From: a virus | Length of the DNA: 26,359 nt | Virus record (IMG/VR): IMGVR_UViG_3300027645_000004 | Coordinates: 1-26,359 of that record | Strand: one strand, 5' to 3' | Shown: one piece after another, positions 2,261 through 18,540 of the stretch | Layout of the letters: the number at the start of each line of letters is the position of its first letter | Numbering within the stretch: the first letter of the stretch is position 1 | Made by a program: the position numbers and the translations under genes | Notes under the pieces: model-generated | The model's input: the letters and a program-made list of their open reading frames with translations, nothing else | What the model was told of the DNA's origin: nothing | Databases searched by the model: none

Positions 2261-3210
2261 TCGCTGAGAGCGACATTGCTGCCGCGCGGGCCCGCTTCGA
2301 CCTGATCGGGGCGGACGTGGCCTTGAAGCGCAGCGGCCGCGAGCTGGTGGGGCTCTGCCCGTTCCACAGCGAGAAAACCCCGAGCTTCTATGTCGTGCCG
2401 GACAAGGGGTTTTATCACTGCTACGGCTGCGGCGCGCACGGCACCACGATCGACTACATCATGCGGGTTCGCGGGCTCGGCTTCATCGAGGCGGTGACCG
2501 AGATCCTCGGGCTGCCGGCGCAGCGCGCGAAGGAAGCGGCCCCCGCCGCAGTTGTACGAAACGACCGGACAACTGACGAGCACGACGCCGAGCGGGTGCG
2601 CGAGATCCTGGCCGGCTGCGGGCCGGTGGTGGTCGGGACCGCGGCGCACCTCTACCTGACGCTGCGCCGTCTCAAGTCCGATCAGCCGGCGCTGCTGGCC
2701 CACCAGGCGCTCTACTGCCACGAGACGCGCGGTCCGCTGCCGGCGCTCGTCGCGCCGCTCACCAACAGCGCCGGCGAGGTCAGCGCGGTGCAGCGGATCT
2801 GGTGCTTGCCCCGCATCGAATACGTCTACGGGGTAGGCCCGCGCGACAGCCGGGCGCCGCTCAAGGTCCGCAAGAAAACCCTCGGCCACATGGGCGACGG
2901 CGCGGTGCAGCTCAAGCCGCCGAGCGGGCCGCTGCTCGGCCTGGCCGAGGGCGTCGAGACGGCGATCGCCGCGATGCGGCTATACCGGATCGCGGTCTGG
3001 GCGGTCTGCGGCGCCGCGCGTCTCGGACACGTCTGGATCCCGGGGACTGTCAACGAGGTCCTGATCTTTGGCGACAACGGCGACACCGGGCACGAGCTCG
3101 CCGAGCGCGCCGTCGGCCTGCATGAAAGCCGCGGGCTGGCGTGCTCCGCGATTTACCCGAAACCGCAATATGGCGACTTCGCCGACGAGCTGATCGGGTG
3201 GCGGCCGTGA
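2257..3210 (+). CDS. DNA primase: CHC2 zinc finger plus Toprim domain
   Basis: 317 residues. The N-terminal CHC2 zinc finger is intact: CPFHSEKTPSF with Cys34/His37, and FYHCYGCGAHG with Cys55/Cys58, as in DnaG and phage primases. The C-terminal third is a Toprim domain with the glutamate motif AEGVETA (Glu231) and an acidic motif GDNGDTG (272-278) in place of the usual DxD. It would synthesise primers for phage DNA replication and works beside the RepA-like helicase encoded next but one. It is shorter than DnaG and lacks the DnaB-interacting C-terminal domain, typical for compact phage primases. Both junctions are 4-nt overlaps (start 2257, stop shared with GTG 3207). Confidence 0.9.
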   Translation: MIAESDIAAARARFDLIGADVALKRSGRELVGLCPFHSEKTPSFYVVPDKGFYHCYGCGAHGTTIDYIMRVRGLGFIEAVTEILGLPAQRAKEAAPAAVVRNDRTTDEHDAERVREILAGCGPVVVGTAAHLYLTLRRLKSDQPALLAHQALYCHETRGPLPALVAPLTNSAGEVSAVQRIWCLPRIEYVYGVGPRDSRAPLKVRKKTLGHMGDGAVQLKPPSGPLLGLAEGVETAIAAMRLYRIAVWAVCGAARLGHVWIPGTVNEVLIFGDNGDTGHELAERAVGLHESRGLACSAIYPKPQYGDFADELIGWRP

Positions 3211-3431
3211 AGGCGCGGCCGCGCGCCGAGCCGGGCGAGCGTTTCGACATCGCCGTCGAACATGCCATGTGGGCGATCTCGTCCGGGTTTACTCCCCGCG
3301 AGGTGATCCTGTCGCTCAACCAGGCTCTCCCGGTCGACCCGAGCTGGTCCGATGCGATTTATGCCCTGGTCTATGCACAGGTCGCGATGGAGCGGCAGGC
3401 AATGTCGCTGGTGCTGCGGAGGACCGCATGA
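3207..3431 (+). CDS. small protein between primase and helicase
   Basis: A GTG start at 3207 overlapping the primase stop (GTGA) gives a 74-residue protein whose stop overlaps the helicase ATG at 3428. An upstream ATG at 3141 would extend it into the primase gene, but the 4-nt overlap start matches the pattern of the whole cluster. The protein is helical, with FDIAVEHAMWAISSGFTPREVILSLNQ (residues about 14-38) looking like a small globular domain. I do not recognise the family. The position suggests a helicase or primase accessory factor. Confidence 0.7.
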   Translation: MKARPRAEPGERFDIAVEHAMWAISSGFTPREVILSLNQALPVDPSWSDAIYALVYAQVAMERQAMSLVLRRTA

Positions 3432-4633
3432 GCGACCCCCGCGATCCCCGCGACGACAACGTCTATGACATTGGATCGGCGCGGGCGCGCAAGGCGCCGA
3501 TCGATCCCTTCCTGCCATTCTTTGCCTCGCAGCTTGAAGGGTACACCCCCCAGCCTCGGGAATGGATTGTCGACGGCGTATTGCTGCGCAAGACCATCTG
3601 CCTGTTCGCCGGGCCGCCGAAGATCGGGAAATCGCTACTCCTGCAGCAGCTCTTGACCTCGGTCGCCACCGGGCTCTCCTGGCTCGGCCGCGAGACGGTG
3701 CGCTGCCGCGCCTTCGGGCTTTTCACCGAGGATCCCGAGGACGAACTGCGCCGGCGGCAGCTCGACATCAACGCGCTGGTCGACCGCTCGCCGGCGGACT
3801 TCGAGCTCGACCTCAGCTGGGACGCGCGCGAGGGCAAGGATGCGCTGCTGGTCGAATATGAGCGCTTCAGCGACCGGCCGAAATTCACGCCGCTCTGGTA
3901 TCAGCTCTGGGACTTCGTGCGCGACGAGGGCGTCCAGGTGATCGGCATCGACACCGCGGCGGTGGTGTTCGGCGGCAACGAGAATTACCGCGGCCAGGTG
4001 ACCAGCTTCATGCGCGAGCTTGTCAAGCAGGCGATCGCCGTCAACGGCGCGATCGTCCTGACCGCGCACCCATCGAAGACCGGTCCCAACAGCTATTCGG
4101 GCTCGACCGCCTGGCTCGGCTCGGCACGCTTCGCCCTGTCGCTCGGCCGCCCGAATGACTATGACGCCGATCTCGGCCCGCACCATCAGCGAGTGCTGCG
4201 CGGCCTCGGCGCCAATTACGGCGCCGGGCTGGTCGCGGAACGAATCGAATACCAGGACGGCGTTTTCGTCGCCTCCGACCCCGAGATCCGGCAAGGCAAG
4301 AGCGGACCGCTGACGACGCAGGAGCGGCTCGACCTGCGCTACCGAATGCTGATGGGGTTGAAGCGCGTGCTGCACAACGGCGCCAAGGTGCCGGCCGACA
4401 CGATGTCGCCGATGTCGATGCCGAGCCGCGCCCGCCGCTCGCCCGACCCGCTCATCAACCGGGTGCCGCTCAACGACCTCTACCAGGCGCAGGACGACTT
4501 GATCGAGGCCGGCCAGGTGGTGCGCGTCGATGTCGGCCGCAAGATGCTGCTGCGCCCGGCCGAGGGCCCGTTTTACGACGGGGAGCAGCCGTGGATACCG
4601 GCTGTCGCGCCCGGCAGCGAGGCGGCGCAATGA
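3428..4633 (+). CDS. RepA-like RecA-fold replicative helicase/ATPase
   Basis: 401 residues from ATG 3428. Walker A is AGPPKIGKS (61-69), followed by the RepA-type motif FTEDPEDELRRR (99-110), Walker B VIGIDTAAVV (171-180), and a motif-3-like LTAHPSKTG (211-219) with STAWLGSARF. This order matches the AAA_25/RepA-like hexameric helicases of plasmids and phages, which unwind DNA at the fork. The C-terminal part (about 300-401) is variable and carries helical segments likely used for partner or DNA contacts. The gene overlaps both neighbours by 4 nt and belongs to one replication operon with the primase. Confidence 0.88.
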   Translation: MSDPRDPRDDNVYDIGSARARKAPIDPFLPFFASQLEGYTPQPREWIVDGVLLRKTICLFAGPPKIGKSLLLQQLLTSVATGLSWLGRETVRCRAFGLFTEDPEDELRRRQLDINALVDRSPADFELDLSWDAREGKDALLVEYERFSDRPKFTPLWYQLWDFVRDEGVQVIGIDTAAVVFGGNENYRGQVTSFMRELVKQAIAVNGAIVLTAHPSKTGPNSYSGSTAWLGSARFALSLGRPNDYDADLGPHHQRVLRGLGANYGAGLVAERIEYQDGVFVASDPEIRQGKSGPLTTQERLDLRYRMLMGLKRVLHNGAKVPADTMSPMSMPSRARRSPDPLINRVPLNDLYQAQDDLIEAGQVVRVDVGRKMLLRPAEGPFYDGEQPWIPAVAPGSEAAQ

Positions 4634-7706: not shown

Positions 7707-8185
7707 CCGAGCCGGTGTTCTTTGTCGTGGAGCGGTGCCCTGGCGGCGAGACGGCGGCGATCTACCACGAGCGGCTGCCCGAACGGCTGACGCGCAAGAC
7801 CGCCACACCGCTGGTCTATGCGCTGCGCCTCGACCGGCTGGCGGGCGGTGAGCATTGGGCCAAGCTGACGATGGTGGCGCTCTATGCTCATTACTGCTGG
7901 CTGCGTGATGCCGGCAAGCTGCCGCCGGCGAACCTCGCCGATCCGCCGCGCGCAAAGGGCGAGCAGGGCGTCACGCGCGGCGAATACTGGACTCCGCCGG
8001 CGCGCGCCTGGCCGGAACGCCCGGCCGATCCATTCCCGGCCCCGAGCGATCTCGCGCTGAAGCCTGATGCCGTCGCCTTCATCAGATCGGGGGAGCACTA
8101 CGAGCGTGCGGCTACCGCCCCCGATCCGCGGCCGTCGCCTTCCAGAGAGGATGACGGCCGCGGCATCTTTCTGGGCCTGACATGA
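7703..8185 (+). CDS. hypothetical protein
   Basis: 160 residues, 4-nt overlaps at both ends. The first 75 residues look folded (FFVVERCPGGETAAIYHERL, then HWAKLTMVALYAHYCWLRDAG). The second half is Pro/Arg-rich and probably unstructured, with PPARAWPERPADPFPAPSD. No signal peptide or known motif is seen. It belongs to the chain of small overlapping accessory genes downstream of ssb. The function is not recognisable. Confidence 0.68.
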   Translation: MTEPVFFVVERCPGGETAAIYHERLPERLTRKTATPLVYALRLDRLAGGEHWAKLTMVALYAHYCWLRDAGKLPPANLADPPRAKGEQGVTRGEYWTPPARAWPERPADPFPAPSDLALKPDAVAFIRSGEHYERAATAPDPRPSPSREDDGRGIFLGLT

Positions 8186-8511
8186 GCGGCTGGATCGATC
8201 CGCTCGGCGTGCGCGCCCTCTATCGCTTCGTCCAGGCGGAGCAGCTGCGGCTGCTGGGGCTGATAGCGGAGCAGGGCCGATTACACCCCGACGGCCGCCG
8301 GGTGGCGCGATACCGGGCGCGCTACGCGCAGCTTTGCCGAGTGCAAGCGCTGATCCAGGGCGTCGAGCGCCCGGGACTCGAACTGCGCCCGCACAAGGCG
8401 CTGGTCAACCAGCACCCCGATCGCCCTGACCTGATCCGCGCGATCGACGGGCACTATCACAGCTTCCTCCACGATTACGACTTGCGGCAGCGGGAGGCGC
8501 GTCAGCCATGA
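8182..8511 (+). CDS. hypothetical protein, helical
   Basis: 109 residues, linked by 4-nt overlaps on both sides. It is rich in Arg, Leu and Gln and is predicted by eye to be helical through most of its length, with the motif VARYRARYAQLCRVQALIQG around residues 38-57. There is no cysteine cluster, signal peptide or membrane segment. I do not recognise the family. It may be a small accessory factor of the early operon. Confidence 0.65.
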   Translation: MSGWIDPLGVRALYRFVQAEQLRLLGLIAEQGRLHPDGRRVARYRARYAQLCRVQALIQGVERPGLELRPHKALVNQHPDRPDLIRAIDGHYHSFLHDYDLRQREARQP

Positions 8512-8968: not shown

Positions 8969-9774
8969 TCGCGCTGTCACGAGGGACCGGCTGGCGCCGG
9001 CAGCGACCCGATCACCGCGACCGGCTCTACTCCGCGCCGGCGCCGGTGCTGCGCCAGCTGCCGGCGGTCGTCGACTTGCGGCACTCGGGGTTCTCAATGC
9101 CGGTCTACGATCAACTGGCTACCTCGTCCTGCACGGGCAACGGCCCTGGCGCGCTCGTGCACTTCTGCCTGATCAAAGAGGGGCTGGCGACACCGCAGCA
9201 AGTCCCGTCGCGGCTTTTCGCCTATTACAACGGGCGCGAGATCACCGGCGACACCACGATCGACGGCGGCGCCGAGATTCGCGACGTCATCAAGGGCCTC
9301 GTCACGCATGGCATCTGCTTCGAGTGCGGGCCCGATGGAGCCGTGCGGCCGGAGGACTGGCCCTTCGACCCGCGCGCGGTGCTGACGAAGCCGCCGCAGG
9401 CCTGCTACGACGCCGCGCTCAAAGACCGGGCGCTCGAATACCAGGCGGTCCCGCAGGTCATCAACCAGCTGCGCGCGTGCCTGGCCGACGGCTTTCCCTT
9501 CACGTTCGGGATGAACGTCTTCGCCGAGTTCGACGGGCAAGAGGTCGACCAGACCGGCAGGCTGCCGATGCCGGGACCCAATGAGGCGAGCGCATCCGGC
9601 CACTGCGTCGATGCCTGGGGCTTCGATGACACCAATCGCTGTTTTCTGATCCGCAACAGTTGGGGTCCGCTTTGGTCCAAGTCGATGAAGGGGTTTTTCT
9701 TGATTCCGTATGAATATGTGATTGACCCAAACCTGAGCTCGGATTTCTGGACTATTAGGACCGTTGGCGCATGA
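8965..9774 (+). CDS. papain-like (C1 family) cysteine peptidase
   Basis: 269 residues. It has the C1 catalytic set in papain order: Gln50 and Cys56 in VYDQLATSSCTGNG, with the same six-residue spacing as in papain, His213 in ASGHCVDAWGFDD, and Asn231 in IRNSWGPLW. The short N-terminal segment before Gln50 leaves little room for a pro-peptide. No signal peptide is visible, so it may act in the cytoplasm or in the virion. C1 peptidases are unusual in small phage genomes. Possible roles are prohead maturation, host protein cleavage or lysis. It is placed far from the portal, which argues weakly against maturation. It overlaps neighbours by 4 nt. Confidence 0.87.
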   Translation: MIALSRGTGWRRQRPDHRDRLYSAPAPVLRQLPAVVDLRHSGFSMPVYDQLATSSCTGNGPGALVHFCLIKEGLATPQQVPSRLFAYYNGREITGDTTIDGGAEIRDVIKGLVTHGICFECGPDGAVRPEDWPFDPRAVLTKPPQACYDAALKDRALEYQAVPQVINQLRACLADGFPFTFGMNVFAEFDGQEVDQTGRLPMPGPNEASASGHCVDAWGFDDTNRCFLIRNSWGPLWSKSMKGFFLIPYEYVIDPNLSSDFWTIRTVGA

Positions 9775-9851
9775 GCGCGAATTTAGCCGTCATCTGCCCG
9801 CTGACCGGACAGCCGTGCCCCCGCGGCTGCCCCCGCCGGCGCGGTGAATGA
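9771..9851 (+). CDS. 26-residue Cys-rich peptide
   Basis: A short frame from ATG 9771 overlaps the peptidase stop by 4 nt and ends in a TGA that overlaps the next ATG at 9848. The product is MSANLAVICPLTGQPCPRGC followed by PRRRGE, with Cys9, Cys16 and Cys20, which could form a small zinc knuckle. The double 4-nt overlap is the same as for every neighbour and is the main support. Without it the next gene would lie 73 nt away from the peptidase. Confidence 0.55.
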   Translation: MSANLAVICPLTGQPCPRGCPRRRGE

Positions 9852-10132
9852 GCAAAATGGGTCCGCTCGGTGCGGCCCGAGATATGGCTCACCGGCGCGA
9901 AGATAGAGCGCGGCGCCGAAAATTTGGCGGTTGCCTGGTGTCGCTGATCCTCTTGCCGTCGCTGTTTCTGCTCGGCGGCTGCGGGATGTTTGTGATGGGG
10001 GTCTCCGCCGCCGGCGGCCTGGTGACGTTCGCCAAGGATGTGCTCGATCTCGATGTTGCTTGGCATCAGCGCACGCCCAACAAGACGCCGATCGACAAGG
10101 CGCTGCTGCCCATGTTGGAGATCCCGAAATGA
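9848..10132 (+). CDS. small membrane protein with lipobox-like motif
   Basis: 94 residues. A basic N-terminus (AHRREDRARRRKFGG) is followed by a hydrophobic helix CLVSLILLPSLFLLGGC at about residues 29-45. The helix ends in LGGC, a lipobox-like motif, although the long N-terminal region (over 40 residues before the Cys) is atypical for a lipoprotein. It could equally be a single-pass membrane protein of the holin/spanin type, but no lysis partner is visible. It overlaps neighbours by 4 nt. Confidence 0.65.
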   Translation: MSKMGPLGAARDMAHRREDRARRRKFGGCLVSLILLPSLFLLGGCGMFVMGVSAAGGLVTFAKDVLDLDVAWHQRTPNKTPIDKALLPMLEIPK

Positions 10133-12640: not shown

Positions 12641-12693
12641 GCTCGACGCCGGGCTGAAAAACCCGCGCCGAGCCCCCCAAACAGGAGATCCCA
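12641..12693 (+). promoter_or_regulatory. structured translation leader L1 (CTGAAAAA loop, AAACAGGAG box)
   Basis: The hairpin spans 12641-12673, with arms GCTCG/CGAGC at its base, small bulges, and GGG-CTGAAAAA-CCC at its tip. A C-run and AAACAGGAG (12679-12687) then lead to GTG 12694 with 6-nt spacing. The 11-mer GGGCTGAAAAA recurs at 13668-13678. It is the first of the structured leaders in this operon. Confidence 0.6.
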
Positions 12694-13674
12694 GTGAAAC
12701 CCTCAGAAGTTGCCCAATCGCTCGAATTGCTGATCGGGATCGACCGGCCGGCCTTTCTCGTGGGCCCCGCCGGAATCTACAAATCGTCGGTTGTCGCGCA
12801 GGTCGCGCAAAAGCTCGATCGTCAGCTTATCGACGTTCGAGCAGTCCTGCTCGACGCGGTCGATCTGCGCGGGTTGCCCCACGTCAACGGCGACGGGCGC
12901 GCCCATTGGGCGACCCCCGATTTCTTGCCGCGCGACGGCGAGGGCGTCTTGTTCCTCGACGAATTGAACCGCGCCCCGCCCCTCGTGCAGAATGCGTGTT
13001 TGCAGCTGAGCCTTGAACGGCGCATCGGCGAATATGAGCTGCCCGCGGGCTGGGCTGTCGTCGCGGCCGGCAACCCCGACACCTCGCGCGGTGTCACGCG
13101 CATGAGCGAAGCGCTCGCCAGCCGGTTCGTTCACCTCAGCTGCGAAGTTGACGTGAACGATTGGTGCCGCTGGGCGGTCAGTCACAACGTCCGCCCCGAG
13201 GTCATCGCGTTCGCGCGTTTCCGCCCCGAGCTCTTGCACAACTACGATCCTCGGGCGACCGAGAAATCGTTTCCGTGCCCGCGCTCCTGGGCCTTCGTCT
13301 CGCAGATCCTCGACGCGATGCCCGCGTATGAAATCGAACATTCGCTCTATCAGGGCACCGTCGGCGAGGGCGCTGCCGGCGAATTCATGGCGTTCCTCAA
13401 CATCTATCGGAAGCTGCCAAGCCTCGACGGGATCCTGCTCAACCCAGGTAAAGCCAAAGTCCCCGAGAAGCCGAGCGTGCTTTACGCAGTGGCAGCCGGC
13501 CTCGCTCGCAAAGCAACCGAGCAGAATTTCGATCGCGTGATCCAATACGTCGATCGGATGCCGAAGGAATGGGGCGTCTATTGCGTCAAAGACGCGACGG
13601 GACGCGACGAGCAGCTTTGCTCGACCCCCGCGTTTATCAAGTTCGGCTCGGAAAACGCCGACATCATGGGCTGA
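12694..13674 (+). CDS. MoxR-type AAA+ ATPase
   Basis: 326 residues from GTG 12694, preceded by CAGGAG with 6-nt spacing. Walker B VLFLDELNRAPP (85-96), sensor-1 AAGNPDT (124-130), and the arginine-finger region SEALASRFVHL (138-148) place it among MoxR/CobS-like AAA+ proteins. These act as ATP-driven chaperones or remodelers with VWA-domain partners. The P-loop reads GPAGIYKS (24-31), with Tyr29 replacing the usual Gly before Lys30. The rest of the ATPase motifs are intact. It heads an operon with a DUF3150-like protein and a VWA protein, the normal partners in phages. Translation probably depends on the hairpin directly upstream. Confidence 0.9.
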   Translation: MKPSEVAQSLELLIGIDRPAFLVGPAGIYKSSVVAQVAQKLDRQLIDVRAVLLDAVDLRGLPHVNGDGRAHWATPDFLPRDGEGVLFLDELNRAPPLVQNACLQLSLERRIGEYELPAGWAVVAAGNPDTSRGVTRMSEALASRFVHLSCEVDVNDWCRWAVSHNVRPEVIAFARFRPELLHNYDPRATEKSFPCPRSWAFVSQILDAMPAYEIEHSLYQGTVGEGAAGEFMAFLNIYRKLPSLDGILLNPGKAKVPEKPSVLYAVAAGLARKATEQNFDRVIQYVDRMPKEWGVYCVKDATGRDEQLCSTPAFIKFGSENADIMG

Positions 13675-13731
13675 AAAAGCGGGGCGGCTGAAACCGCCCC
13701 GCCCCCCGCCCCCCCAAACAGGAGTTGTCAC
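13668..13731 (+). promoter_or_regulatory. structured translation leader L2 (CTGAAA loop, AAACAGGAG box)
   Basis: Starting over the MoxR stop codon (13672-13674), the sequence has GGGCTGAAAAA, then a perfect 9-bp stem GCGGGGCGG/CCGCCCCGC with hexaloop CTGAAA (13679-13702). A long C-run and AAACAGGAG (13716-13724) lead to ATG 13732. The layout is the same as in L1, but the stem sequence is different. No T-run follows, so a terminator is unlikely. Confidence 0.7.
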
Positions 13732-14604
13732 ATGGCTAACACGATCACCGAAAAAGCAATGCTCGCGAAGCTGAACATCAGCCAGTGGGCCGCTTCCAAG
13801 CATGACAAGGCGATCACCGAGGAAGTCGCGAAGCAACACGGCAGCGACCCCTCGATGGGCCGCTACTCCAAGCGGCTGATCGCCAAGACCGCGCTCGACG
13901 ACATCCGCGGCATCGCGATCCAGGCGCGTCATCACCACTACGAAAACACGCTGCCCTGGCTCGACGACGGCGCGCGCATCCTGCCCGCCGGCAACTACTT
14001 CGATTACATGGCGGCGCAGCGCGACTTGCAGCACAAATTCGAGACTGCGGTCGTCGACTTCGTCAGCGTGTACCCGCAGCTGGTCGAGCACGCGAAGGCC
14101 TCGCTCAACGGGCTATTCGTGCCCGCGGATTACCCGACGCCCTCCGACATCGGCAGCAAATTCGCCTTCGACGTCTCGATGACGCCGATGCCCGACGCTG
14201 ATGACTTCCGCGTCAATCTCGGCGACGCCGAGCAGTCGCGGATCAGGGCCGACATCGAAAGCCGCGTGAACGGCGCGGTCGAGGGGGCCATGAGCGATCT
14301 GTGGACCCGCATCCATGACGCCGTCTCGAAGATGGCCGAACGGCTGCGCGCCTACGAGGTCGACCCCGATGGCAAGGTGATCAGCACGTTTCGCGACTCG
14401 CTGGTGACCAACATGCGCGATCTCTGCGAAATGCTGCCCAAGCTGAATTTCGCATCCTCGAATTCGCTTGAGAAAATGCGCAGCCGGCTCGCCGCCGAAC
14501 TCTGCGAATTCGACGCGCCGGTGCTGCGCAGCGACGCAGCCAAGCGCGAGGAAATCGCGGCCAAAGCCGAGGCGATCCTCGCCGAGGTGTCGGACTTCAT
14601 CTGA
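13732..14604 (+). CDS. DUF3150-like partner of MoxR/VWA system
   Basis: 290 residues from ATG 13732, preceded by CAGGAG. It is a largely helical soluble protein with no Cys clusters. It starts MANTITEKAMLAKLNISQWA, has a motif RYSKRLIAKTALDDIRGIAI near residues 44-63, and carries helices to the end (RLAAELCEF, AKAEAILAEVSDFI). Size, position and sequence resemble the DUF3150 proteins that sit between MoxR-type ATPases and VWA proteins in phages. It may bridge the ATPase and the VWA protein or bind their target. The assignment is from memory of the family and from context. Confidence 0.8.
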   Translation: MANTITEKAMLAKLNISQWAASKHDKAITEEVAKQHGSDPSMGRYSKRLIAKTALDDIRGIAIQARHHHYENTLPWLDDGARILPAGNYFDYMAAQRDLQHKFETAVVDFVSVYPQLVEHAKASLNGLFVPADYPTPSDIGSKFAFDVSMTPMPDADDFRVNLGDAEQSRIRADIESRVNGAVEGAMSDLWTRIHDAVSKMAERLRAYEVDPDGKVISTFRDSLVTNMRDLCEMLPKLNFASSNSLEKMRSRLAAELCEFDAPVLRSDAAKREEIAAKAEAILAEVSDFI

Positions 14605-14611
14605 TGCGACC

Positions 14612-14714
14612 CCCGCCTGACGATGGCCCCATGATAGGGGCCGAAAACGCCGCCCTCCACCAGCGGCGTTCGCGGAAATCACCCCGATTTTCCCCAACAA
14701 ACAGGAACAGGAAA
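14612..14714 (+). promoter_or_regulatory. structured translation leader L3 (two hairpins, AAACAGGA box)
   Basis: Hairpin A is GGCCCC-ATGATA-GGGGCC (14625-14642). Hairpin B is the perfect 8-bp stem AACGCCGC/GCGGCGTT with a 9-nt loop (14646-14670). GCGGAAATC, a pyrimidine-rich stretch and AAACAGGAACAGGAAA follow, directly before ATG 14715. The element is a diverged copy of the leader at 15873-15971: the first 35 nt are almost identical and stem B differs in sequence but still pairs. Confidence 0.75.
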
Positions 14715-15872
14715 ATGGACGTTGGAAAACTGATGATCCAGGCTCGCACGAGTCTGGTTTTGACCCAGCCGTTTTTCGGCGCGCTGTCGCTTCGCTTGAA
14801 GCTGCTCGCGGCCGAAATCCCGACCCTCAGCGTCGACGGGAAGACGCTGCGCTACAACCCCGACTTTGTCGCCAAGCTGACGTTTCAACAGCTGGTCGGG
14901 GTGATCGCCCACGAGGTCATGCACTGCGCCTTGGCGCATCATGCCCGACGCGGCGGGCGCGACCCGCGCACCTTCAATGAGGCGTGCGACTACGCGATCA
15001 ACCCCATGATCGTCGCAGCCGGGATGCAGCTGCCCGACGGCCTGCTGAATGACCCGGCCTTCGCCGGCAAGTCGGCCGAGGAAATCTATGGCGTGCTGTG
15101 GGCGCGCAAGCGCCAGCAACAGCCGCAGCCCGACGCTGACGACGACAAGCCCGGGCAGTTCGAGGCCGACGTCGGGAATTGCGGGTCCTTCTGCGACAGC
15201 GTTGACGACCAGGGCAAGCAACAGTCCCCGGCCGAGCGCCAGCATGAGGAACGCGAATGGAAGACAGCGGGCGCCGAGGCGATCGCCGTCGCCAAGCGCG
15301 CGGGCAACGTGCCCGGCAGTCTCGTCGAAATGTTCGACAAGCTGCGCGCCCCTCGCGTCGACTGGCGCGAGCAGTTGCGGCGCTTCGTCGGGGCCAGCGC
15401 CAAGCAAGATTACAGCTGGACCCCGCCCAATCGTCGCTACGTGGCCGCTGGCCTCTATCTGCCATCGGTGCGCAGCGACAGCGTGGGCGAGATCGTTTTC
15501 GCGATCGATACCTCGGGAAGCATGAATGAGGAGGCGCTTCAAAGCGCGGTCGACGAATTGAATTCAATCCTCGTCGACGTCGAGCCCGAGCGGGTGCACG
15601 TCATCCATTGCGACACGATGATCCATCAGGTCGACGTCCACGAAGCGGGCGACTACCCGATCAAGGTCGAGGCGAAGGGCCGCGGCGGGACGCTGTTTGC
15701 CCCGGTGTTCGATTGGATCGCAGAGCAGGAATTCACGCCGGCCTGCGTCGTCTACTTCACCGATCTGGAGTGTGGGCACTACGGCACCGAGCCCGCTTGC
15801 CCGGTGCTTTGGGCGACCGTCTCTCCCGGCGACGCGCCGCCCTTCGGCGAAGTGATCAACGTCACTGACTAA
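14715..15872 (+). CDS. metallopeptidase-like plus VWA domain protein (DUF2201 type)
   Basis: 385 residues from ATG 14715. An earlier in-frame start at 14604 lies in the structured leader and is rejected. The N-terminal domain has HEVMHCALAH (His66, Glu67, His70) and FNEACDYAIN (Asp92), the pattern of putative zinc-peptidase DUF2201 proteins. A charged linker (about 131-210) leads to a VWA-like domain with an intact MIDAS motif, Asp265-Thr-Ser267-Gly-Ser269, and a later FTDLECG. With MoxR it probably forms an ATPase/VWA machine that remodels or inserts metal into a target. The peptidase activity of the family is unproven. Confidence 0.88.
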   Translation: MDVGKLMIQARTSLVLTQPFFGALSLRLKLLAAEIPTLSVDGKTLRYNPDFVAKLTFQQLVGVIAHEVMHCALAHHARRGGRDPRTFNEACDYAINPMIVAAGMQLPDGLLNDPAFAGKSAEEIYGVLWARKRQQQPQPDADDDKPGQFEADVGNCGSFCDSVDDQGKQQSPAERQHEEREWKTAGAEAIAVAKRAGNVPGSLVEMFDKLRAPRVDWREQLRRFVGASAKQDYSWTPPNRRYVAAGLYLPSVRSDSVGEIVFAIDTSGSMNEEALQSAVDELNSILVDVEPERVHVIHCDTMIHQVDVHEAGDYPIKVEAKGRGGTLFAPVFDWIAEQEFTPACVVYFTDLECGHYGTEPACPVLWATVSPGDAPPFGEVINVTD

Positions 15873-15971
15873 CCCGCCTGACGAGGCCCTGTGATAGGGG
15901 CCGAAAGCCGCGCCCTTCCCATCCGGGGCGCGCTAGCGGAAATCCACCCGCATCAAACAGGAAACAGGAAA
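15873..15971 (+). promoter_or_regulatory. structured translation leader L4 (copy of L3)
   Basis: Hairpin A is GGCCCT-GTGATA-GGGGCC (15885-15902). Hairpin B is CGCGCCC/GGGCGCG (15909-15932). The element starts one base after the VWA stop. AGCGGAAATC and AAACAGGAAACAGGAAA then precede ATG 15972. It matches L3 closely in order and spacing. Stem B is changed on both arms, so pairing is kept, which points to a functional RNA fold. Confidence 0.75.
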
Positions 15972-16241
15972 ATGGACGACGACCAGAAGGACGACGCCCG
16001 CGCACTCGCAGTTATCGAATTGGCCCGAGCCAAATATCATCGCGACGGTGAAGTCGAGATCGATGGGGGCACGATCAGCGAGGGTGACGATAACGGGGCC
16101 TATGTTCAAGCGTGGGTCTGGGTCGGCTTCGCGGGGACCCCCTTCGACAAGGGAAATAGAGCCATGACGCGCGGAGGTGAGCTGTGGCCTATGTGGCGCG
16201 ACGACCTCGCGCCGGACAACGAGGCGGCCGGCGGTTGCTGA
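15972..16241 (+). CDS. hypothetical acidic protein of the MoxR/VWA operon
   Basis: 89 residues from ATG 15972. An upstream in-frame start at 15891 lies inside hairpin A and is rejected. The protein is acidic (MDDDQKDDARALAVIELARA at the start) with a central beta-rich segment DNGAYVQAWVWVGFAG. Similar small proteins occur in phages without a known role. It uses the same leader type as the VWA gene, so the two are probably expressed together. Its TGA stop lies in the loop of the hairpin at 16223-16257. Confidence 0.7.
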   Translation: MDDDQKDDARALAVIELARAKYHRDGEVEIDGGTISEGDDNGAYVQAWVWVGFAGTPFDKGNRAMTRGGELWPMWRDDLAPDNEAAGGC

Positions 16242-16257
16242 AACAACCCCGGCCGCC
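16223..16257 (+). promoter_or_regulatory. 14-bp hairpin with CTGAAA loop around a stop codon (L5)
   Basis: The left arm GGCGGCCGG-C-GGTTG and right arm CAACC-CCGGCCGCC pair over 14 bp with one bulged C, closing a CTGAAA loop. The TGA in that loop (16239-16241) is the stop codon of the 89-residue gene. GAACAGGAAA follows at 16276-16285. The next gene starts at 16328. It has the same loop as L2, with an unrelated stem. Confidence 0.65.
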
Positions 16258-16327
16258 GCCCCGGCCACCGATCGCGAACAGGAAACGCGACGGCGCCAGC
16301 GGGGCTTAAACATGGGAAGGCAGGACG

Positions 16328-16561
16328 ATGACACCAAGCGAATTGAAAGAATGGCGCGCGGGGATGGGCTGGTCGCAACAGAAGGCGGCCGAGCACCTCG
16401 ACGTCGCGCTGCGAACCTATAAGGGCTACGAATGGGGGACGCGCAGCAGCGGTGGCACCGAACTCGCGGTCCCCAGGTCGATCGCGCTCGCGGCGCTGGC
16501 GCTGCGCTTTGCGCGCGACGTGCTGCTCCAAGAGCAACGAGAGGGAGGCTCCAATGGATAA
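16328..16561 (+). CDS. XRE-family helix-turn-helix regulator
   Basis: 77 residues from ATG 16328, with a GGCAGGA ribosome-binding site 5 nt upstream. TPSELKEWRAGMGWSQQKAA and EHLDVALRTYKGYEWG form a typical XRE/Cro helix-turn-helix in residues 2-38. It is followed by helices ending in LLQEQREGGSNG. It probably represses or activates a phage promoter. Candidates are the divergent region at 11687-12693 or its own operon. It overlaps the next gene by 8 nt. It is smaller than CI-type repressors and lacks a peptidase domain. Confidence 0.82.
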   Translation: MTPSELKEWRAGMGWSQQKAAEHLDVALRTYKGYEWGTRSSGGTELAVPRSIALAALALRFARDVLLQEQREGGSNG

Positions 16562-17174: not shown

Positions 17175-17411
17175 TCAGCGCAGCGCGTCGAGCGCGCCCC
17201 TGATCAAACCCGCGCGCGGTTGCGACGTTGTTGCGCGGGCCTCGCGCCCCAGCTGCTCGAGGTGATGATCATCGAGGGCCAGTGCCCCGGCGCCCATGAT
17301 CAGCGCGTCGACCCAGCTGTCGTCGTGTCGATGTGTCAGCACTTCGTCGTCAGCGTCAAAGCGCGGTGGCGCCGCCTTTGGCGCCTCCGGTGGGTGCGCG
17401 TCGGTTTTCAA
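17175..17411 (-). CDS. possible small protein at the end of the ParB/ABC operon
   Basis: An open frame runs from 17564 down to 17175, but its first 50 residues are Arg/Pro/Ser-rich and overlap the ABC gene. A TTG at 17409-17411 would give 78 residues with more ordinary composition (DADDEVLTHRHDDSWVDALI, then DHHLEQLGREARATT). It would overlap the ABC gene's end by 56 nt. No strong ribosome-binding site is visible and the family is unknown. It may be a real last gene of the operon or a chance frame in GC-rich DNA. Confidence 0.4.
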   Translation of the reverse strand: MKTDAHPPEAPKAAPPRFDADDEVLTHRHDDSWVDALIMGAGALALDDHHLEQLGREARATTSQPRAGLIRGALDALR

Positions 17412-18540
17412 AGAGGGCCCCGACGCGCTCGGGACGCTGCGTCGAGGGCGACCCGGCCGGCGCGATGTAAGCGAAAGCCGCGGAGACGCGGGTGGCGGAG
17501 AATTTGCCCTGGTGCTTTTTGAAGCCGGGATCCGCCCGTCGCCCGCCGGGGCTTTGCGTACCATGTCGCATCAACCTCCACCGCGGCGAAGCCGCTTTCT
17601 GGGCGATGATCGCCGGGTGCGAGGTCACCGCATGAAATCGCCACCCCCGCTCCCAGAGGTGTTGCCCGAGCCATTCGGTCAGCGCGCGCGATAGGCCCAG
17701 CCCTTGATTGTCCGGCAGCACGACGGTGCGATGCTCCGCGAAAATGTTGCGCGCCGTTGGGTGAGGAAATTTGGCCGCGGCTGAAAAGGCGACGCAGCGG
17801 CCCTCGACGAACCCGCCGACGCACAGCGCGCCAGGCGAAAGACGCGAGCTTAGATAATGATGCGGTGCAAAAATTGGCCAGATTTCTCGACCCACTGAGC
17901 GGATTTCAAAGGCAATGTCTGGTCGTCGTTGAACTGACCTCGCTTCGAACGCGCCCAAATGCGGTTCGTAAATCCAGTCGGGTTGAATCCAGGGGATGAC
18001 ATCGTAGTGGCAAGAGATCGCGATCAGCCGGCGCTTGGCGCGACGCACCGCTTTCTGAACCGAATGCGAGGCGATCTTGGCAACCTGGCGGTCGACGACG
18101 CTGGTGAATTCGTCGACCACGAGGAGATCGGAAGTCTCAGCCAGCCCCCGCGCCATCGTTACCCGGAATTGTTCACCATTGCTGAGAGTGTGAAAGGGAC
18201 GAAGCCAGGCTGGCGGCGAGCCGAATCCGACCGCCGTAAGCAAGCCGGTGACCTCCTTGATACCGGCGGTCGGCGGGAAGCCATCGAGGACCGATTGATC
18301 CGCCGGCCAGTCGAAAGCCGTCACGAGGTCGGCGCCGAACAATGCGCGCGCGACGCTCGATTTGCCCGACCCCGACGGCCCGACGATAAGGCCGACATTC
18401 CAGTCAAGGTCTTCAATCGGCAGCTCGCCGGCGATAACCATTCGACTCTTTTCCTCGGTCGCCATGTCGAACATGCCGGACACCTGAACCACGCGCGGCG
18501 TGCGCATGATTGCCGCTTCCAGCGTGATATCGATCTTCAC
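17356..18540 (-). CDS. ABC-type ATPase fused to GNAT-like acetyltransferase domain
   Basis: 394 residues. The N-terminal half is an ABC ATPase: Walker A GPSGSGKS (54-61), signature LSNGE (119-123), Walker B LLVVDEFTS (139-147), D-loop Asp150 and a switch histidine in SCHYD (His178). No membrane domain is present, so it is not a transporter. From about 240 the sequence is GNAT-like: FVEGRCVAFSAAAKF, RTVVLPDNQGLGLSRALTEW, then HAVTSHPAI. A late KFSATRVSAAFAYI resembles the closing strand of this type. The arrangement fits COG2401 (ATPase fused to predicted acetyltransferase). It follows the HNH-like gene with a 4-nt overlap. The substrate is unknown. Confidence 0.85.
   Translation of the reverse strand: MKIDITLEAAIMRTPRVVQVSGMFDMATEEKSRMVIAGELPIEDLDWNVGLIVGPSGSGKSSVARALFGADLVTAFDWPADQSVLDGFPPTAGIKEVTGLLTAVGFGSPPAWLRPFHTLSNGEQFRVTMARGLAETSDLLVVDEFTSVVDRQVAKIASHSVQKAVRRAKRRLIAISCHYDVIPWIQPDWIYEPHLGAFEARSVQRRPDIAFEIRSVGREIWPIFAPHHYLSSRLSPGALCVGGFVEGRCVAFSAAAKFPHPTARNIFAEHRTVVLPDNQGLGLSRALTEWLGQHLWERGWRFHAVTSHPAIIAQKAASPRWRLMRHGTQSPGGRRADPGFKKHQGKFSATRVSAAFAYIAPAGSPSTQRPERVGALFENRRAPTGGAKGGATAL

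Follow-up and report, generated by a model that had tools for sequence, protein, structure and literature searches.

Two of the intergenic leaders in a phage operon that encodes a MoxR-type ATPase, a DUF3150-like protein and a DUF2201/VWA protein are almost certainly hammerhead ribozymes, and the best reading of the sequences is that the operon message is probably processed into single-gene mRNAs capped by hairpins. The window, by which we mean the whole 26,359-nucleotide stretch that was analyzed (IMGVR_UViG_3300027645_000004), comes from a phage contig carrying terminase, portal, primase and SSB genes. The MoxR, DUF3150-like, VWA, 89-residue and XRE genes are co-oriented within it at the coordinates given in Table 1, and, in agreement with the original prediction, AAACAGGA-type boxes were found ahead of each of the first four genes and genes outside the operon are packed by 4-nt overlaps in the list of open reading frames. 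In phage records, as well as in phrog_1314, relatives of the DUF2201/VWA protein are widely labeled "HNH endonuclease"; this looks like a propagated error, since Pfam matches a metallopeptidase-like domain together with VWA. Further downstream, at 17356-18540 on the minus strand, the window encodes a 394-residue protein of phrog_11143 (E = 1.5e-96) with weaker matches to phage "ABC transporter" proteins.

The original prediction had placed structured leaders before the first four genes of the operon and a fifth hairpin behind the 89-residue gene, and folding confirmed hairpins at all five places, with z-scores against shuffled sequences of -1.8, -2.3, -3.3 and -1.8 for leaders 1 to 4 and -3.8 for hairpin 5. 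The operon junctions carry real RNA elements, but the five are not all of the same type: HHR-A and HHR-B, as we call leaders 3 and 4, are hammerheads, whereas elements 1, 2 and 5 are simple hairpins. When the pieces of 71 and 81 nt that span leaders 3 and 4 are folded, they give a three-way junction with an unpaired core, and both copies have the layout CCGC-CUGACGA-stem II-GAAA-stem III-UH-GCGG of a complete type I hammerhead, open at stem I. Stems I, II and III measure 4, 6 and 8 bp in HHR-A and 4, 6 and 10 bp, with a bulge, in HHR-B; stem II and the core are common to the two copies, and the stem III sequences differ, yet both pair. All positions of the invariant core (C3 U4 G5 A6 N7 G8 A9, G12 A13 A14, A15.1-U16.1 and H17) are matched in both copies. 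The core criteria, and a strict curation rule by which the 10.1-11.1 pair must adjoin A9, are those given in PMC3088659; HHR-B has a G-C pair at this place, and in HHR-A an inserted U precedes the G-C pair. Stems I and II are predicted to be in tertiary contact through a pseudoknot of 4 bp in HHR-A and 3 bp in HHR-B.

Table 1. Positions of genes and RNA elements in the window and of associated elements in related loci
Feature	Position	Strand	Basis or detail
Hairpin before MoxR gene (leader 1)	12641-12675	+	CUGAAAAA loop; no ribozyme core
MoxR-type AAA ATPase	12694-13674	+	GTG start; Pfam AAA_5 7.7e-9; phrog_1297 2e-92
Hairpin between MoxR and DUF3150 (leader 2)	13679-13702	+	9-bp stem, CUGAAA loop; no ribozyme core
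DUF3150-like protein	13732-14604	+	Pfam DUF3150 E 0.011, below cut-off
HHR-A, type I hammerhead upstream of VWA gene (leader 3)	14613-14675	+	Folding, descriptor scan, covariance model
HHR-A stem I	14613-14616/14672-14675		
HHR-A core; extra U	14617-14623; 14624		Core CUGACGA
HHR-A stem II	14625-14630/14637-14642		
HHR-A GAA	14643-14645		
HHR-A stem III; C17	14646-14653/14663-14670; 14671		
HHR-A predicted cleavage site	14671-14672	+	After C14671; hammerhead consensus on sequence
HHR-A predicted pseudoknot	14632-14681	+	Loop II UGAU 14632-14635 with tail AUCA 14678-14681
HHR-A 3'-product hairpin	14674-14692	+	Predicted; from nt 3, GGAAAUC/GAUUUUC
DUF2201 metallopeptidase-like/VWA protein	14715-15872	+	Pfam DUF2201_N 6e-57, DUF2201 1e-26
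HHR-B, type I hammerhead upstream of 89-aa gene (leader 4)	15874-15939	+	Folding, descriptor scan, covariance model
HHR-B stem I	15874-15877/15936-15939		
HHR-B core	15878-15884		
HHR-B stem II	15885-15890/15897-15902		
HHR-B GAA	15903-15905		
HHR-B stem III; A17	15906-15934; 15935		Stem III with one bulged C
HHR-B predicted cleavage site	15935-15936	+	After A15935; hammerhead consensus
HHR-B predicted pseudoknot	15893-15944	+	Loop II GAU 15893-15895 with tail AUC 15942-15944
HHR-B 3'-product 5'-terminal hairpin	15936-15951	+	Predicted; GCGG 15936-15939 with CCGC 15948-15951
89-aa protein, gene behind HHR-B	15972-16241	+	List of open reading frames
Hairpin across stop codon of 89-aa gene (hairpin 5)	16223-16257	+	CUGAAA loop
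XRE gene	16328-16561	+	
G001 terminator-like hairpins	L078 ~608-636; L107 ~4515-4546, 2268-2310	-	
L225 36-nt array	1633-2362, 3396-3887; G021:C1 ~2212-2599, 7816-8220, 9291-10001	-	

Searches of controls and databases bear on how specific these assignments are. A descriptor scan of both strands of 300 first-order Markov windows returned eight loose motifs (at least 3 bp per stem), none with stems like those of HHR-A or HHR-B. A covariance model from which the window sequences had been omitted gave exactly two matches in the window, HHR-A (E = 4.1e-14) and HHR-B (E = 1.2e-10), the next match having an E-value of 0.09. Rfam 15 detected neither hammerhead in the window at its curated gathering thresholds (RF00163, RF00008 and RF02276), HHR-B scoring 13.5 bits against the RF00008 threshold of 48.5 and HHR-A matching no Rfam hammerhead; at E-value thresholds, the window returned chance matches only, apart from this weak match of HHR-B. 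In 12 more loci, the Rfam hammerhead models likewise miss the type I members of arrays, so the failure to find HHR-A and HHR-B reflects a limitation of these models. When leader 3 was compared with named phages by BLASTN, no match was returned, and the leader itself is therefore without a named relative. Activity of both copies as ribozymes is likely.

The two copies belong to a large phage family. When viral contigs were scanned with a DNA pattern, 110 stretches were recovered, compared with approximately 7 estimated by chance, and full motifs were present in 83; assemblies of Clostridia, Paenibacillus and Alphaproteobacteria supplied prophage-like matches. The covariance model was built from 49 of the pattern-scan sequences, the window being left out. 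Among these 49 relatives, 97.9% of stem cells were paired and double changes numbered 100, compared with 26 after shuffling, while all slid versions performed far worse; covariation was likewise strong on 150 sequences, although the motif search had already demanded the stems and related sequences were counted. Pairing of loop II with the tail in a pseudoknot provides a cleaner test, because the motif search did not require it: it can form in 197 of 208 copies, versus 131 after permutation, and the observed mean was reached in none of 1,000 permutations. The extra base after A9 seen in HHR-A occurs in two thirds of 217 relatives and is U in 131 of 144. Up to 16 hammerheads lie within approximately 8 kb of a single contig, all copies are co-stranded in each of the 44 multicopy loci, and a start with a Shine-Dalgarno sequence is found 20 to 70 nt past the cut in 70% of 197 copies, compared with 12 to 14% in controls. 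In the window, the DUF3150 stop precedes HHR-A by 9 nt and the VWA stop precedes HHR-B by 2 nt, and the predicted leaders after cleavage are 43 nt on the VWA message and 36 nt on the 89-aa message. Hammerheads also occur in mobile elements elsewhere (PMC6155905), and the copies could in principle be selfish or circle-forming, retrozyme-like RNA elements that sit between genes by chance; their common strand, their position between a stop and a ribosome-binding site and their fixed distance from starts, together with the occupation of the same homologous junctions by different ribozyme classes, make this the least credible of the explanations that we considered.

A further property concerns the predicted 3' products of cleavage. 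The HHR-B product begins with GCGG and carries the complement CCGC 8 nt later, and in both window copies a predicted 5' hairpin lies before the ribosome-binding site, as in the synthetic insulator RiboJ. Across the family, the first four bases of the product are complemented at nt 8 to 20 in 132 of 254 copies, compared with 21 when the tail is shuffled and 6 to 20 in stretches farther along. A wider set comprised 465 copies, some of them gathered with stem I left free; in 237 of these a hairpin can be anchored at nt 1 to 3, versus 45 in shuffled sequences and 48 and 42 at downstream offsets; with one copy per locus, the figures are 147 of 280 versus 28. A hairpin at the 5' terminus is thus within reach of about half of the 3' products in the family, which is five times as many as expected by chance. 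Head and tail also change together: CCGC is present in the tails of 140 of 231 copies with a GCGG head and 10 of 234 others, and CCAC is present in 14 of 24 tails behind GTGG and 64 of 441 others. Heads other than GCGG have a matching tail in 46 cases, compared with 19 after permutation (maximum, 30).

The 5' hairpin and the ribozyme cannot coexist, because the hairpin takes a strand of stem I. When longer contexts are folded, the probability of stem I falls to between 0 and 0.3 in an energy model that omits the pseudoknot and the order of transcription, since the downstream hairpin competes with it, and this competition is our chief doubt about HHR-A and HHR-B. It could also be the basis of a regulated switch: pairing of GCGG with CCGC would block stem I and so keep the ribozyme off, until a ribosome, protein or ion tipped the balance, and cleavage would thereby set the timing. 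Hairpin and stem I do compete for identical bases and the long-context fold prefers the hairpin, but the other strand of stem I is transcribed first, so that fast cleavage should precede the hairpin, and we saw no ligand-binding domain or conserved extra structure; we regard a switch as unlikely. Cutting first and hairpin formation afterwards is the order that we infer from the earlier transcription of the first strand of stem I.

Related leaders are present in homologous operons; the original prediction would have been refuted by their absence, and it therefore survives that test. In a relative phage, G001 (IMGVR_UViG_3300036832_000818), the MoxR, DUF3150 and VWA genes follow in identical order, with protein identities of 58 to 70% (in two pieces), 53% and 56 to 71%, respectively, and four of its eight hammerheads lie ahead of these three genes and of the gene that follows VWA. 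Three hammerheads in G001 have a terminator-like hairpin with a U-rich tail directly 5' of them, and transcripts that read through such a hairpin would be cut immediately. A single-sequence search with the window DUF3150 protein gave no match, and its relatives were consequently reached through an alignment of three DUF3150 proteins, which yielded 68 viral loci, nearly all with MoxR and VWA genes as neighbors; no link between DUF3150 and phages was found in the open-access papers searched. MoxR, DUF3150 and VWA constitute a recurrent three-gene phage module with at least two gene orders (L200-L271). Type I hammerheads precede MoxR in L215 and DUF3150 in L225, three type II hammerheads precede MoxR, DUF3150 and VWA in L216, and a twister-P5 ribozyme precedes DUF3150 in L217. 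The presence of different ribozyme classes at the same homologous junctions points to selection for cutting there. In most of the 68 operons, including those of the close relatives L204 and L206, no ribozyme was detected (with our model on all 68 and Rfam on 30), and the ribozyme is therefore dispensable for the operon. Twister-sister ribozymes and RAGATH-5 RNA share gene arrays with hammerheads in L203 (4751-4822, 7777-7854 and 8141-8215), L178 (3080-3161 and 4744-4828) and L134 (4861-4913). L225 (IMGVR_UViG_3300005253_000193) also contains 35 units of a 36-nt array, AGAAATCCA-N9-AGCGAGCCA-N9, whose half period is 18 nt. The units form three clusters, of which two lie between MoxR and DUF3150; a control pattern gave 0.

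The remaining hairpins of the window have a CUGAAA loop in common, and this motif lies inside a stem of at least 5 bp at 2 of its 7 places in the window, compared with 3 of 1,188 for permuted motifs. Junctions in L204 carry CUGGAA hairpins, two counterparts of which end in CUCUUUU. No ribozyme core was found in hairpins 1, 2 and 5 by descriptor, covariance model R1 or Rfam; the match of hairpin 5 to Proteo-phage-1 (21 bits against a threshold of 42) is weak and at the level of chance. They were also rejected as intrinsic terminators, as C-rich sequence follows them and there is no U tract, and the CUGRAA loop was rejected as a general phage element, being suggestive in the window, L204 and G001 and unenriched in 92 G+C-rich loci. 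Perhaps these hairpins are a second, unrelated element with a role in end protection or a weak terminator-like role, which is a guess. In the original view, the leaders are static structures that fix the ratio of the subunits or are bound by a common regulator, for which the XRE and ASCH-like proteins are candidates. The shared loop and its L204 counterparts would suit this view, as would the recurrence of both proteins in relatives: homologs of XRE occur in L204 and, at a more downstream position, in G001, and those of its neighbor, the so-called ASCH protein, are present in both L204 and L206. That view accounts poorly for the catalytic core and hammerhead-specific covariation of leaders 3 and 4, for the lack of CUGRAA enrichment in the wider phage set and for an ASCH identity without support from Pfam, NCBIfam or PDB (an AlphaFold model, at pLDDT 52, was too poor and was discarded), and we consider it very unlikely. 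Nothing links either protein to the leaders, and a common binding protein finds no backing in elements of which the best supported are self-cleaving ribozymes, predicted to cut between genes with no need of protein. It is possible that the leaders do set the subunit ratio, through the separation of messages.

Under the message-processing reading, leaders 3 and 4 would cut a long transcript just past one stop and approximately 40 nt before the next start. By the established chemistry of hammerheads, which leaves 2',3'-cyclic phosphate and 5'-OH ends, the folded ribozyme, ending in the cyclic phosphate, would stay at the 3' end of the upstream message, and the message downstream would start with a 5'-OH; such 5'-OH ends escape decay that depends on a 5' monophosphate. 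The freed strand of stem I would then pair with its complement just downstream, and the resulting 5'-terminal hairpin may block religation and shield the new 5' end. The VWA and 89-aa messages would thereby become separate, their stability and translation independent of the remaining operon.

Elements of this scheme have precedents. Clustered prophage hammerheads were described by Perreault et al. in 2011 (PMC3088659) from Agrobacterium ardA, Azorhizobium and Clostridium scindens; cleavage of the phage clusters was demonstrated in vitro and, for one set, in E. coli also. As in the window, those type I to III hammerheads stand in series between phage genes, are stabilized by pseudoknots and were proposed to cut transcripts; the genes here differ in forming a MoxR-DUF3150-VWA operon, and in the available part of that report we found no mention of a 5' hairpin that refolds or of ribozyme classes replacing one another at homologous junctions. 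The paper also records a hammerhead just 5' of a phage gene in haloviruses HF1 and HF2, 13 nt before a helicase gene, but as a single copy with a variant core in an archaeal virus. Other ribozyme or RNA classes, none of which occurs in the window, are twister, twister-sister and RAGATH-5 (RF02684, RF02681 and RF02685): twister-P5 occupies the same junction in a homologous operon (L217), and members of these classes also turn up within the arrays of L093/L203, L178 and L134. In RiboJ, the sTRSV hammerhead followed by a 23-nt hairpin approximately doubles transcript in E. coli and increases protein two- to tenfold, an effect for which a stabilizing 5' hairpin has been proposed as the reason (PMC6206723). 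The order of hammerhead, residual 5' hairpin, ribosome-binding site and single gene is that predicted here; RiboJ is engineered, with its hairpin appended, whereas the phage hairpin would reuse the freed strand of stem I. The operon hammerheads are best read as a natural counterpart of this insulator.

Although the kind of ribozyme is already known, this operon and its matching front-end hairpin appear to be undescribed. The Rfam models miss a large population of phage hammerheads, and standard annotation therefore undercounts them. The MoxR-DUF3150-VWA operon makes the message-processing idea for bacterial and phage hammerheads directly testable, and the mixture of ribozyme classes at its junctions, together with the refolding hairpin, suggests why selection maintains a cut. 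More tentatively, and with somewhat more doubt than confidence, we suggest that phages carry insulator cassettes composed of a ribozyme (hammerhead I or II or twister, interchangeable at a given junction), a 5' hairpin that arises from the freed strand, renders the cut irreversible and caps the new mRNA, a ribosome-binding site and a single gene; if so, with up to 16 cassettes per phage, one long transcript would be converted into independently tuned messages.
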